Source: Geovibrio thiophilus
GTDB lineage: Bacteria; Chrysiogenota; Deferribacteres; Deferribacterales; Geovibrionaceae
Assembly: GCF_004087915.1 (NCBI RefSeq)
Contig: NZ_CP035108.1
Coordinates: 1,054,001-1,118,000 of the forward strand
Reading direction: 5' to 3'
DNA: 64,000 nucleotides
Part shown: piece by piece, positions 2,344-12,701 of the stretch
Layout of the letters: each line of letters opens with the position of its first letter
Position numbering within the stretch: the first letter of the stretch is position 1
Made by a program: the position numbers and the translations under genes
Notes under the pieces: model-generated
Databases searched by the model: none
What the model was told of the DNA's origin: nothing
Seen by the model: only the letters and a program-made list of their open reading frames with translations

Positions 2344-3654
2344 TTTTAAAGTATAATTGCTGCCTCGCCCAGTTCCTGAATGGAACAGTAAATCTTTGTC
2401 TGATAGATTGCCAAGTTCTTCTGTGGCTGTTGTCTTGCCCACGTCATTCAGCTTCTGATACTCCGAATTTGTGATTGAGCCGTTTTCCTTTACATAGAGG
2501 ACGGCTTTGATCTGCCGCTCGTTTAAACCTATTTTTTTCAGTGAGGCTTCGTTGTATCTGTCTTTGAATATAGTTATCTGAAAGCCGCCGAAGGCTTCGC
2601 AGATTTCAGGTTCAGGCAGACTTGCGGATTTGCAGGTATCAATGATTTTTGGTATTCCTGTTCCCCATGCTTCAATGTAGCCTCCCTTCAGGCAGGCATC
2701 GGCAATGAGCCTGTTTCTTGGTCTTGAAGGGTGGTTCTGTTTAAGCATTTCAACGGTCAAGCCCTCGACAAGCGAGCCGTCATTCCATATTTGCAGGCGG
2801 TCGTCATATATTTTAATCTGCGTCATGTTGCCCATGTAATCACGATGGATTAAGGCGTTCAAGATCGCTTCCCGAAGGGCAGGGAAGGGGTATTCAGGTG
2901 TTTCGATACGGTTTACACCCTCAAAGGATATGTTCTTTATTATGAATTTGGTTTCAATTATCTCAAAAACTCTTTTCTGTAAGCTGATTATGTTGCCTTC
3001 GATTATTTCATGGAACTTAGGGGAAATTTCTCCGCCGACAAACCGCCCTACTTTTACATATGTATGGCGGTAGAACTTTTCGGGATTCTTGCCGAAAAGG
3101 ATTATGGCGGCTCTTTTCAGCCTGCCGTTTTTGGTAAGGTTCAGCTTATCAAGCAGTTCGAGGACAGACAGATTCTTTGCGTCAGGGATGCGTCCTGAGC
3201 GTTCAGCGTCATTGAGATATACTGCAATGCTGTCATTGTCTATGTCATCAAACATGGCATCTTCTTCTATGACATCACCCCAAGACATGCCGGATTTGCG
3301 GAGCAGAAATTCAGTCAGGGCGTTGCCCACAAGCTCCTTTGTGGTACTTCCGGTGCGCTGGTAATATCTGCCGCTTAAAGAGATTGCCATTGATGAAGGT
3401 CTGATATGTATTTCAAGAAAATGCATACCGTCCTGTTCATTCAGATTGATTTCAGGAAATATGCCAAGCTTGCTTTGAATCTTATTCGGCAGATCATCAG
3501 TGAGCTTCTTATAGTTGTCAATGCCTACAATCTCTCCCTTATCATTAATACCGACATAAAGAACACCGCCCTGAGCATTGGCAAAACTGCAAAGCTGTTT
3601 CAGGTGGTCGTCATTCCAGCTTTCTTTATATTCGATATTCTGATTTTCAGACAT
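2341..3654 (-). CDS. AlbA_2 (Schlafen-type) domain putative ATP-binding transcriptional regulator
   Basis: The 437-residue protein has the usual order for this family: an AlbA_2 domain in the first ~120 residues (EYKESW, then FANAQGGVLYVGINDKGEIVG), a GHKL-type HATPase_c_4 region around residues 255-345 (REAILNALIHRDYMG, followed by IKIYDDRLQIWNDGSL and the G-rich IEAWGTGIPKI), and a C-terminal winged-helix (ERQIKAVLYVKENGSITNSEYQKL). Members are common near mobile and phage-related loci, but their biological role is mostly unknown. It stands alone between the repeat array and the tRNA-Leu flank. The start at 3654 precedes the conserved first strand. The function as a regulator is inferred from the winged helix only. 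Confidence 0.88.
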   Translation of the reverse strand: MSENQNIEYKESWNDDHLKQLCSFANAQGGVLYVGINDKGEIVGIDNYKKLTDDLPNKIQSKLGIFPEINLNEQDGMHFLEIHIRPSSMAISLSGRYYQRTGSTTKELVGNALTEFLLRKSGMSWGDVIEEDAMFDDIDNDSIAVYLNDAERSGRIPDAKNLSVLELLDKLNLTKNGRLKRAAIILFGKNPEKFYRHTYVKVGRFVGGEISPKFHEIIEGNIISLQKRVFEIIETKFIIKNISFEGVNRIETPEYPFPALREAILNALIHRDYMGNMTQIKIYDDRLQIWNDGSLVEGLTVEMLKQNHPSRPRNRLIADACLKGGYIEAWGTGIPKIIDTCKSASLPEPEICEAFGGFQITIFKDRYNEASLKKIGLNERQIKAVLYVKENGSITNSEYQKLNDVGKTTATEELGNLSDKDLLFHSGTGRGSNYTLK

Positions 3655-7877: not shown

Positions 7878-7965
7878 GTAAGCAAAGCGTCAGTATTGGT
7901 TGCCTCGCTTGAGGCGGTCGGGTTTGCCGTTCTTTATTGAGCGGCAGAAAACAGGAATAATGATA

Positions 7966-8054
7966 CAGTTTCATTATGAAACTGCGCTGTGCGGAACGAA
8001 TGTAAATTTTGTTCGGCGTCGGTGTGTGAGTGAAAACTGCGGCATGCAGGTTTT
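7966..8054 (+). repeat. Copy of the structured repeat family, upstream of tRNA-Tyr
   Basis: The first hairpin is AGTTTC-ATTAT-GAAACT (7967-7983; it can extend by C-G), followed at once by GCGCTGTGCGGAACGAA. A second hairpin, AAAAC-TGC-GGCAT-GCA-(G)-GTTTT, lies at 8033-8054 after GTGTGAGTG. The unit matches the secE-upstream repeats, where the corresponding stem is AGCTTC/GAAGCT followed by GCGCCGTGCGGAGCGAA. Both stem arms have changed together. The loops here do not carry the CAGGAnG motif. Confidence 0.6.
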
Positions 8055-8076
8055 AACGAACTATCATCATATAGAA

Positions 8077-8450: not shown

Positions 8451-9641
8451 ATGGCTAAAGCTAAGTTTGCTAGAACGAAGCCCCACGTCAACGTAGGAAC
8501 AATCGGTCACGTAGACCACGGTAAAACTACCCTTACTGCAGCGATAACCTGCGTACAGGCAAAGAAAGGACTTGCAGAGTTCGTAGATTACGGCAACATC
8601 GACAAGGCTCCGGAAGAAAGGGAGCGCGGTATAACAATCGCGACAGCTCACGTTGAGTACGAGTCACCTGCCCGCCACTATGCTCACGTTGACTGCCCCG
8701 GTCACGCTGATTATGTAAAAAACATGATCACCGGCGCCGCGCAGATGGACGGAGCGATCCTTGTAGTAAGCGCGGCAGACGGTCCTATGCCCCAGACAAG
8801 AGAGCACATCCTTCTTGCACGTCAGGTAGGAGTTCCTTACATAATCGTTTTCATGAACAAATGTGACATGGTAGACGATGAGGAACTTCTTGAGCTTGTA
8901 GAGCTTGAAGTGAGAGACCTTCTTTCGACTTACGAATTTCCCGGCGACGACACACCTATCATCAAGGGTTCAGCGCTTAAAGCACTTGAGAACCCTACAG
9001 ATGAGAAATGGGCAGGCGCGATAGCCGAGCTTGTGTCAGCGATGGACAGCTATATTCCCGAGCCTGAAAGAGCAATAGATAAAGAGTTCATAATGCCCGT
9101 AGAAGACGTGTTCAGCATCTCCGGCCGCGGAACGGTAGTAACCGGTCGTATAGAGCAGGGACAGGTCAAAGTGGGAGAAGAAGTAGAGATCGTGGGAATA
9201 CGCGATACAGTAAAGACAATAGTAACAGGCGTAGAGATGTTCAGGAAGATTCTTGACTCAGGCGTAGCCGGCGATAACGTCGGTATTCTTCTGAGAGGAA
9301 TCAAAAAGGACGACGTGGAACGCGGACAGGTACTTTGCAAACCGGGTTCAATCAAACCCCACCGCAGGTACAAAGCGGAAGCGTACATCCTGACCAAAGA
9401 GGAAGGCGGTCGCCACACTCCCTTCTTCAGCGGGTATCGTCCTCAGTTCTATTTCCGTACGACTGACGTTACGGGTATAATCACACTTCCCGAAGGGACA
9501 GAGATGGTAATGCCCGGAGATAACATCAGCTGCGTGGTAGAACTTATAACACCCATCGCAATGGACGCGGGACTTCGTTTCGCTATTCGTGAGGGTGGTA
9601 GAACAGTCGGTGCAGGTGTTGTTACCGAGATAATTGAGTAA
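8451..9641 (+). CDS. tuf: Elongation factor Tu, copy 1
   Basis: EF-Tu carries aminoacyl-tRNA to the ribosomal A site using GTP. The 396-residue protein has G1 GHVDHGKTT near residues 18-26, the switch I threonine in ERERGITI, G3 DCPGHADY, and G4 NKCDM, followed by the two beta-barrel domains. AGGAGGAG precedes the ATG. It encodes exactly the same protein as the second copy at 25085, and the genes differ at only about five synonymous sites. It is cotranscribed with the upstream tRNAs and followed closely by rpmG. Confidence 0.98.
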
Positions 9642-9652
9642 GGAAACTTGAA

Positions 9653-9802
9653 ATGAGAGAAAAAATAATCCTTGCATGCACAGAGTGCAAACGCAGAAAC
9701 TACAGCACTACTAAGAACAAAAAGACCATGACAGGTAAACTTGAGCTTAGCAAGTACTGCAAGTGGGACAGAAAACACACTGTTCACAAGGAAACAAAAT
9801 AA
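9653..9802 (+). CDS. rpmG: Ribosomal protein L33
   Basis: A 49-residue protein starting [17 protein letters not shown] with the family end [16 protein letters not shown] lies ahead of the ATG. The first CxxC (CTEC) is kept, but the second pair reads CKWD, so the fourth zinc ligand is missing, as in several three-Cys L33 variants. It sits 11 bases after tuf and before tRNA-Trp, a conserved tuf-rpmG-trnW-secE-nusG order. Confidence 0.95.
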
Positions 9803-9821
9803 TTTTTTGAAAAGATAGAGT

Positions 9822-9897
9822 AGGTCAGTAGCTCAATTGGCAGAGCATCGGTCTCCAAAACCGAAGGCTGCAGGTTCGATTCCTGTCTGACCTGCCA
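9822..9897 (+). tRNA. tRNA-Trp (CCA)
   Basis: AGGTCAG pairs with CTGACCT, discriminator G, and here the CCA end is encoded at 9895-9897, unlike the other tRNAs in the window. The anticodon stem TCGGT/ACCGA encloses CTCCAAA, anticodon CCA. The T arm is GCAGGTTCGATTCCTGT. Confidence 0.96.
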
Positions 9898-9919
9898 TTT
9901 TTTAAATCATCGCATGTGC

Positions 9920-9940
9920 AGGGCGAACTTGTTTCGCCCT
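9920..9940 (+). other. Hairpin after tRNA-Trp
   Basis: AGGGCGAA (9920-9927) pairs with TTCGCCCT (9933-9940) around CTTGT. There is no following T run. It separates the tRNA from the repeat array and may mark a processing site. Confidence 0.5.
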
Positions 9941-9963
9941 ATACGTGTCGATAGAGAACGCAT

Positions 9964-10024
9964 CTGTGCCGAAGCTGCGCAGCTGTGAGTGAGAAAAAAC
10001 TACAGGACGTATGTTTTCTCGAAC
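9964..10024 (+). repeat. Diverged copy of the structured repeat
   Basis: This copy keeps the layout GTGAGTGAGAAAA...TACAGGACGTA...TTTTCTCGAA. GAGAAAA (9991-9997) pairs with TTTTCTC (10014-10020), and TAC/GTA closes an AGGAC loop. The stem sequence differs completely from the three downstream copies while remaining complementary. A palindrome AGCTGCGCAGCT lies just upstream, at 9973-9984. Confidence 0.65.
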
Positions 10025-10070
10025 TATTATATGCTGAGTAAAACCTGCTTGAAAAGCTTGCTGCTGACAC

Positions 10071-10427
10071 AGCTTCAGGAAGAAGCTGCGCCGTGCGGAG
10101 CGAAGGGCTGCATTGCAGACCGCGAGCGGTTGCAGGAGAACCACAGGATGTAGGTTCTCCGAAATGTGTAAGAGTAATTAGCACTCTCTCGGGGTAAAAA
10201 CAGCTTCAGGAAGAAGCTGCGCCGTGCGGAGCGAAGGGCTGCATTGCAGACCGCGAGCGGTTGCAGGAGAACCACAGGATGTAGGTTCTCCGAAATGTGT
10301 AAGAGTAATTAGCACTCTCTCGGGGTAAAAACAGCTTCAGGAAGAAGCTGCGCCGTGCGGAGCGAAGGGCTGCATTGCAGACCGCGAGCGGTTGCAGGAG
10401 AACCACAGGATGTAGGTTCTCCGAAAT
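10071..10427 (+). repeat. 131-bp tandem repeat, 2.7 copies
   Basis: Copies start at 10071, 10202 and 10333. The first two appear identical over 131 bases; the third stops matching after 95 bases (CTCCGAAAT), 21 bases before the secE ATG. Each full unit folds into AGCTTC-AGGAA-GAAGCT, CTGC-ATT-GCAG, ACCG-CGAG-CGGT, GGAGAACC(AC)AGGAT(GT)A-GGTTCTCC and AGAGT-AATTAGC-ACTCT. Open frames on the minus strand through these units are by-products of the repeat and not genes. Confidence 0.95.
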
Positions 10428-10448
10428 AAAGAAAAGGATGTGCTGACT

Positions 10449-10628
10449 ATGGGAAAGCTGCAAACTTTCATCAACGAAGTCAGAGAAGAACTTAAAAAAG
10501 TCATCTGGCCCACCAAAGACGCTACCATCGGCACCACCGCGGTAGTTATTGCAATCTGCCTTATCTGTGCAATTTATCTTGGTGTAGTAGATTACGGGCT
10601 TTCAAAGCTTACCCAATTCATTTACTAG
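10449..10628 (+). CDS. secE: Preprotein translocase subunit SecE
   Basis: SecE is the small clamp of the SecYEG channel. The 59-residue single-span form has an amphipathic N-terminal part, INEVREELKKVIWPTKD, followed by one membrane helix (GTTAVVIAICLICAIYLGVV). The ATG at 10449 is preferred over the GTG at 10440 because AAAAGGA lies 10 bases ahead of it. It is followed 13 bases later by nusG. The 5' region is the repeat array, whose third copy ends right before the ribosome binding site. Confidence 0.95.
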   Translation: MGKLQTFINEVREELKKVIWPTKDATIGTTAVVIAICLICAIYLGVVDYGLSKLTQFIY

Positions 10629-10641
10629 GAAAGGGCATTTT

Positions 10642-11166
10642 ATGGCGAAAAAATGGTATGTAGTCCATACCTATTCGGGTTTTGAGAAACGTGTGAAGAC
10701 TCTTCTTGAAGAGAAGGTCAGAAACTCAAATCTCGAAGACCAGATAGAAGACGTGCTTATCCCCACGGAAGACGTAGTTGAGCTGAAAAAAGGGAAAAAG
10801 AAAATCAGCAAAAAGAAGACCTTCCCCGGCTATATCCTCGTTCACATGGAAATGAGCACGGAAAACTGGCATGTTGTCAAAAACATACCTAAAGTTACCG
10901 GCTTTGTGGGAGGGATAAATCCTGTTCCCATCCCAGAAGAAGACGTAAAAGCAATGATTGACCTCGCTAAATCGCAAGCCCCCAGAATGACCGCAAAATA
11001 TGTCAAAGACGACAAAGTTGAGGTTGTTGACGGACCGTTCAACGGTTTTATAGGAACTGTTGACGAGGTTAACCCAGACAAGGAAAAGGTTCGCGTTATC
11101 GTGAGCATTTTCGGAAGACAAACGCCCGTAGAACTGGATTATCTGCAAGTAAAAAGAGTCGGATAG
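10642..11166 (+). CDS. nusG: Transcription antitermination factor NusG
   Basis: The 174-residue protein has the NGN domain (WYVVHTYSGFEKRVKTLLEE, later FPGYILVHMEM and TGFVGG) followed by a C-terminal KOW domain (DDKVEVVDGPFNGFIGTVDEV). It couples RNA polymerase to the ribosome or to Rho. AAAGGGCA precedes the ATG. The secE-nusG-rplK order is typical. Confidence 0.97.
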   Translation: MAKKWYVVHTYSGFEKRVKTLLEEKVRNSNLEDQIEDVLIPTEDVVELKKGKKKISKKKTFPGYILVHMEMSTENWHVVKNIPKVTGFVGGINPVPIPEEDVKAMIDLAKSQAPRMTAKYVKDDKVEVVDGPFNGFIGTVDEVNPDKEKVRVIVSIFGRQTPVELDYLQVKRVG

Positions 11167-12374: not shown

Positions 12375-12701
12375 GCACACAATCTGGTTTAAGAAGCAGG
12401 TGTATTCCGGACAGGTACAATTCGGATTTTTTCCGAACTGTTATTTGTCGGGATCGTAAGTCCTGCGGAGATCGGTTGATATAGAATTTATCACCGAACT
12501 TTACCACGGTTGCCCCGCTTGCGCTAAGCAAGGCAGGGAAATCAAAGACACAGTGATGTGTTTGCAGCCGCTTATACACTCTGTAAGTCACGCTCATTTA
12601 ACGGGCTGTGCCGTACGGAGTGAAGCCGTGTCAGTCATGGCGCAGGCGGTTGCAGCCGGACTTTCGTGATGTCAGTCCGGTGACATCAATCGGAGGACAG
12701 C
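12375..12701 (+). promoter_or_regulatory. rplJ (L10) leader region
   Basis: This 327-bp non-coding gap between rplA and rplJ is where the L10(L12)4 autoregulatory leader is found in most bacteria. Hairpins visible include TTCGGA-TTTTT-TCCGAA (12421-12437) and CCGGACT/AGTCCGG (12656-12680), the latter ending just ahead of the GGAGG of rplJ. I could not assign the exact L10-binding kink-turn by eye. The last part is a copy of the dispersed repeat family. Confidence 0.6.
12605..12680 (+). repeat. Copy of the structured repeat family in the rplJ leader
   Basis: GCTGTGCCGTACGGAGTGAAG and GCAGGCGGTTGCA match the secE-upstream units (GCTGCGCCGTGCGGAGCGAAG and GCGAGCGGTTGCA). The final hairpin again has a different but complementary stem, CCGGACT/AGTCCGG, with loop TTCGTGATGTC sharing GATGT with the other copies. 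The CAGGAnG motif is absent. Confidence 0.6.

Follow-up and report, generated by a model that had tools for sequence, protein, structure and literature searches.

The closest described counterparts of the array analysed here are the RNAs CsrB, CsrC, RsmX, RsmY and RsmZ (Rfam clan CL00106), whose hairpin loops carry GGA motifs repeatedly and fit the binding rule of CsrA and RsmE. Csr sponge RNAs have been described for the Gammaproteobacteria; these bacteria lack FliW, a protein that antagonises CsrA and is found elsewhere (PMC7652899). RsmE binds best to an ANGGAX hexaloop placed directly on its stem, with N and X looped out, and the form that lacks N is bound more weakly (PMC4005645). Selection of CsrA ligands by SELEX gave the consensus RUACARGGAUGU, with loops mostly of six nucleotides and AC paired with GU; ligands with four or fewer contiguous stem pairs prevailed (PMC7652899).

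Other systems are similar in part. In CsrA-controlled leaders of the glgC type (E. coli), a GGA hairpin shortly precedes a ribosome-binding region with a GGA of its own. The TwoAYGGAY motif, which by its name has AYGGAY loops, has been reported from the human gut, Gammaproteobacteria, and Clostridiales (PMC2864571). REP and BIME sequences, like other dispersed palindromic repeats of intergenic DNA, are lineage-specific intergenic hairpins that occur in hundreds of copies and in tandem arrays.

The element described below shares repeated GGA loops with the CsrB group, but it is a repeat family with about 100 or more loci in intergenic gaps, has a conserved core between two sites, matches no Rfam family, and resides in a host with FliW. 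It resembles REP/BIME in its number, tandem arrays, and restriction to a lineage, but its stems vary while its loops are conserved, and it follows the transcript strand in a genome that lacks a Y1 transposase. At secE it recalls the glgC leader; unlike that leader, it is not gene-specific and lies beside many unrelated genes. AYGGAY is the form of many of its first loops.

The array between tRNA-Trp and secE

The window is a stretch of 64,000 nucleotides from Geovibrio thiophilus. An earlier note on this DNA had reported a CAGGA(T/A/C)G heptamer in the loops of seven hairpins between tRNA-Trp and secE, and all seven motifs are present where it located them, on the + strand, starting at 10003, 10076, 10144, 10207, 10275, 10338, and 10406. 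The gap therefore has several GGA hairpin loops in one short stretch, as CsrB and CsrC do. In the whole window, both strands included, the motif occurs 44 times, against 22.3 +/- 5.2 in shuffles. The sequence also bears out the three hairpin forms described: AGCTTC-AGGAA-GAAGCT and GGAGAACC-AC-AGGAT-GT-A-GGTTCTCC, three times each, and TAC-AGGAC-GTA, once. Six of the seven motifs lie within three 131-nt units that start at 10069, 10200, and 10331, and the seventh (10003) belongs to a degraded leading unit. Units 1 and 2 are identical, and unit 3 is identical to them until 10427 and diverges beyond. The array stretch folds more stably than dinucleotide shuffles (z = -4.66). The features are as follows, with the three hairpins of the element called hp1, hp2, and hp3, and with bit scores from covariance model R1 where so marked.

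7965..8064, + strand: degraded element copy between tRNA-Thr and tRNA-Tyr (R1 45.0 bits)
9822..9897, + strand: tRNA-Trp (CCA), upstream neighbour (ARAGORN; Rfam tRNA)
9943..10027, + strand: degraded leading element, of which only the 3' hairpin at 9992-10019 (loop AGGAC) is intact (weak covariance match, 18.2 bits; hairpin position)
10069..10168, + strand: element copy 1, with hp1 at 10071-10087 (AGGAA), core and hp2 at 10089-10129, hp3 at 10135-10160 (AGGAT) (R1 96.8 bits); spacer to 10199
10200..10299, + strand: element copy 2, identical to copy 1, with hp1 at 10202-10218 and hp3 at 10266-10291 (R1 96.8 bits); the same spacer, to 10330
10331..10430, + strand: element copy 3, with hp1 at 10333-10349 and hp3 at 10397-10422, adjoining the secE ribosome-binding region (R1 99.1 bits; identical to copy 1 until 10427)
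10433..10440, + strand: secE Shine-Dalgarno region (AAAGGATG), which includes GGA (sequence)
10449..10628, + strand: secE, downstream gene (ORF preceding nusG; named from sequence and position)
10642..11166, + strand: nusG (ORF; close homologues in seven relatives, at one place each)
12588..12689, + strand: degraded element copy 12 nt upstream of the next gene, both loops without GGA (R1 35.7 bits; context)

At this locus, both hp1 and hp3 have five-base loops (AGGAA and AGGAT), the AGGAA of hp1 being the form that lacks N, so other members of the family are stronger examples than this site. In the degraded copy at 7965..8064, the end stems are well paired and both loops are without GGA. A GGGCGAA...TTCGCCC hairpin (9918-9942) lies directly 3' of tRNA-Trp and is kept in all three congeners.

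Copy number and distribution of the element

The array belongs to a dispersed, lineage-specific element that is about 105 nt long and occurs about 300 times in this genome, often in tandem. The earlier note had not seen this recurrence, nor the third hairpin and conserved core between the two GGA hairpins. Compared with its own genome (3.0 Mb, one contig), the 131-nt unit gave 92 matches at about 40 places. Model R1 found at least 150 candidates in this genome, and 134 and 149 matches in two congeners, while the core CGCCGTGCGNAGCGAAG, with up to one mismatch, occurs 307 times here and 112 and 141 times in the two congeners; copy numbers from drafts are underestimates because assemblies break at arrays, as in draft G002, where contigs C2, C4, C6, and C26 start inside an element (first 160 bases). 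A single genome from another genus gave three copies in the same core search, the 17 remaining relatives gave none, and a reversed control pattern gave one match in total across the genomes searched. With 307 core copies and arrays between predicted genes, the element has the form of dispersed multi-copy intergenic palindromes by which REP/RAYT systems are recognised.

Among 84,980 species genomes, in a listing that may omit records very close to the window's own genome, the exact core plus GCGAGCG was found only in Deferri_01, Denitrovibrio BM701, and two stray records, single matches in Mycolicibacter and a Dehalococcoidia MAG that are taken as probable chance. The NCBI taxonomy places both Denitrovibrio and Geovibrio in the Geovibrionaceae, Deferribacterota. 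A viral origin was rejected, as the exact core pattern had no match in viral contigs. The element is also not a known Rfam family: only tRNAs were matched in the whole window, and nine element loci gave no relevant match at E up to 1. TwoAYGGAY in particular had no Rfam match on 9900-10450 (E up to 10) or in the nine loci (E up to 1), and we know of no core in that motif like the element's. Literature searches under several word combinations returned no description of the element.

Arrays range from one to eight copies, the largest noted being the eight at locus L041. Their spacers are locus-specific and often duplicate the preceding gene's 3' end together with its stop codon. Target-site duplication by transposition was set aside as the explanation of these flank repeats, since tandem duplication of flank plus element explains them equally well. 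The spacers of several arrays hold a second repeat family side by side with the first: a dispersed repeat, GAGATTGCTTC...CGCAATGACG, is found at L041 (2738-3404), L037 (2350-2460), and the array end of L052. At L063 (reverse strand, about 2860-3080), just upstream of the array, there is a longer sub-family with GGTACATGGATGTACC, a larger, different core, and then ACTACAGGAAGTATGTTT; here too there are GGA hairpins at both ends.

In gaps between tandem genes, 67 arrays are in sense and 9 in antisense orientation (p 4e-12 if independent), and this genome alone has 32 and 8, respectively (p 2e-4). A further 31 arrays lie in convergent gaps and five in divergent gaps. The sense preference persists in genes that face replication, with nine arrays accompanying lagging-strand genes (this genome; origin assumed at position 1). 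These figures come from stretches taken around matches and are therefore biased to strong, repeated copies. The array starts within 15 nt of the preceding stop codon in 40 of 98 cases; this and all other distances to genes are approximate, as genes were called by a codon-usage script. Such closeness leaves little room for a promoter and makes it likely that the elements are co-transcribed with neighbouring genes. Judged by sequence only, the flanking genes look like scattered housekeeping genes rather than a regulon. The special wiring to secE-nusG and tuf suggested in the earlier note is not supported, as scores of unrelated genes flank the same element.

Conserved loops on variable stems

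Each element has the order ACA-hp1-core-hp3-tail. The hp1 stem has about seven pairs; the invariant core, CGCCGTGCGNAGCGAAG-hp2-CGCGAGCG, includes hp2; and hp3, commonly reading ACAGGAUGU, comes after TGT or GTT. The GGA sites of hp1 and hp3 are about 66 nt apart in each copy. An intrinsic terminator at hp3 was considered and rejected, as a TATTAAG-like sequence and no T run follows the hairpin.

The stems of all three hairpins differ greatly between loci and retain their pairing. Paired cells amount to 94.1%, compared with 72.7% in shuffles, and double-change cells number 237, compared with 70; double changes were found in 19 of 27 pairs. Slid versions of the structure were all far worse than the actual one, although this control favours the structure, which was predicted from that same alignment. 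In several arrays shared between species, the hp3 stems are locus-specific and the hp1 and hp2 stems have been replaced, a pattern suggestive of exchange between copies. Such exchange, or palindrome correction, may account for part of the stem covariation.

The loops behave differently from the stems. In a tally of 196 distinct elements from three genomes, hp1 forms a hexaloop in 161, with C-G closure in 156, and 138 of the 161 read ANGGAX. The A, G, G, and A are nearly fixed (entropies of 0.23, 0.60, 0.22, and 0.13 bits), while N (1.58 bits) and X (1.57 bits) vary freely. Most hp1 hexaloops thus have the form of a CsrA-binding site, an ANGGAX hexaloop directly on the closing pair with N and X free. 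In hp3, the motif is CAGGANG in 156 elements and CANGGANG in 24, so that CA(N)GGANG accounts for 180 of 196, most of these hairpins having AGGAX pentaloops without N. The pattern is unchanged when one element per array is counted. At least one GGA motif is kept in 221 of 222 elements, both being missing in one. The hp2 hairpins of the same copies, which are of equal age and history, have no GGA loop, and outside the elements (380 kb, same loci), ANGGAX occurs in one of 87 C-G-closed hexaloop hairpins. Loss of GGA from an intact stem was looked for and is confined to a minority of copies, about 10% for hp1 and a few percent for hp3, including the two degraded window copies. Antisense arrays have intact loops in 16 of 23 hp1 and 21 of 23 hp3, and sense arrays in 144 and 170 of 184; as the antisense loops are not clearly weaker, loop conservation alone does not separate the two orientations.

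The same contrast between stem and loop is seen across species. The element at the secE site is common to three species, with stems changed and AGGA kept in every loop: the two full copies of G002 have GGCAC/GTGCC as their hp1 stem, and the single copy of G001 has AGTTTC/GAAACT in place of the AGCTTC/GAAGCT of this genome. About 20 further arrays share their position between the species. No element lies between tRNA-Trp and secE in five genomes from other genera (G003-G007). Elsewhere in other genera, matches are weaker and the core is often different, and the end hairpins, read by eye, again carry GGA: both hairpins at nine loci of G003, and hp1 at six and hp3 at five of seven loci of G007. 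In G001 (C13, about 506.4-510.3 kb, L132/L117), two copies are separated by some 3.8 kb of additional DNA where this genome (L047) has a single array; DNA may be gained or lost by recombination with the elements as its boundaries.

Candidate functions

The genome search bears on the CsrA link proposed in the earlier note. A single canonical csrA is present (77 codons from the first ATG, starting MMLVLSRK), directly 3' of fliW and beside a flagellar gene. Its product aligns to solved CsrA structures and keeps L4 and R44, which we take to matter for RNA binding. The hp1 loops follow the CsrA/RsmE high-affinity rule closely, and the loops agree with the SELEX consensus, on stems longer than in most SELEX ligands. 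The part of the proposal that ties these loops to CsrA is supported by their fit to the rule, by the presence of csrA, and by the persistence of the loops as stems change; the part that made them a lone sponge gene is not.

The element is probably a lineage-specific transcribed repeat with two CsrA sites per copy, acting as a distributed CsrA sink with local effects in cis. Each copy presents two candidate docking loops, hp1 (usually ANGGAX) and hp3 (CAGGANG or CANGGANG). Because the CsrA dimer binds RNA at two sites, a single copy could accommodate one dimer. Copies would be transcribed with neighbouring genes and bound by CsrA, and jointly they would form a sink whose capacity tracks local copy number and overall transcription. 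At copies that adjoin a Shine-Dalgarno region, such as the one at secE, CsrA might act locally on translation or mRNA decay, perhaps as a repressor in cis; the Shine-Dalgarno GGA of secE may itself be a CsrA site. The main doubts about a sink are that roughly one in ten hp1 loops has been lost, that the stems are long, that most hp3 hairpins form pentaloops, and that the element is possibly selfish.

This last alternative, unlikely but the most serious, is a selfish or structural dispersed repeat of the REP or MITE kind, in which the hairpins would function in DNA mobility, slippage, or the protection of mRNA 3' ends, and GGA would serve another protein or descend from young master copies. Amplification and dispersal, copy numbers that change between species, flank duplications, exchange of hp1 and hp2 between copies, degraded copies, and scattered neighbour genes are all as expected of such a repeat. 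Against it stand the strong sense-strand bias and the lack of a REP-type transposase: a search for PF01797 (Y1 transposase) had no match in this genome and matched five of 14 control genomes, and identity with REP/RAYT was rejected on this ground. Youth also fails to explain why GGA is fixed when N, X, and the stem positions are saturated, or why hp2 is free of GGA; exchange between copies would not fix GGA while N and X stay free; and other genera have GGA end hairpins with different cores.

It is improbable that the copies are solely CsrA-responsive leaders or intercistronic elements, each controlling its neighbour with no collective sink. The placement of many would suit this: of 72 arrays followed by a gene in the same direction, 24 stop no more than 30 nt short of its start codon, and at secE, the AGGA of the ribosome-binding region sits 28 nt from the last hp3 AGGA, an arrangement that resembles the bridging of hairpin and Shine-Dalgarno sequence in glgC (PMC7652899). 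However, many arrays either adjoin a stop codon and are remote from any downstream gene, or sit in convergent gaps, and there control of translation initiation is impossible; the neighbours also look like unrelated housekeeping genes.

A separate sponge gene of the CsrB kind, confined to the gap between tRNA-Trp and secE as the earlier note envisaged, would account for the six or seven GGA hairpins within some 410 nt and for a weak similarity to the Rfam CsrB model (12.5 bits, E 0.3, the sole listing on 9900-10450 at E up to 10). A single gene of this kind is very improbable and was rejected on that score, far below the cut-off of 71, and on the some 300 other copies, with larger arrays elsewhere. 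A congener has one full copy only at the site, and the + strand from 9640 to 10700 has no terminator-like site and no promoter-like site of the types sought.

More tentatively, the distributed sink might be extended to a family-wide CsrA buffer, in which several hundred transcribed copies, each able to hold a dimer, tie free CsrA to total transcription alongside FliW, and in which genera keep the end GGA hairpins while the core is replaced. If so, this would be a third arrangement, with CsrA buffered by a repeat family across the transcriptome in a fliW-bearing phylum, and repeat amplification would be linked to post-transcriptional control. With GGA held constant and stems, N, and X varying, these hundreds of CsrA-type sites also make up a natural library. 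In G006 (L072, L082, L166), one hairpin has CACGACG in place of the expected CAGGACG, with GGA kept in nearby hairpins, a natural loop variant of interest for CsrA.
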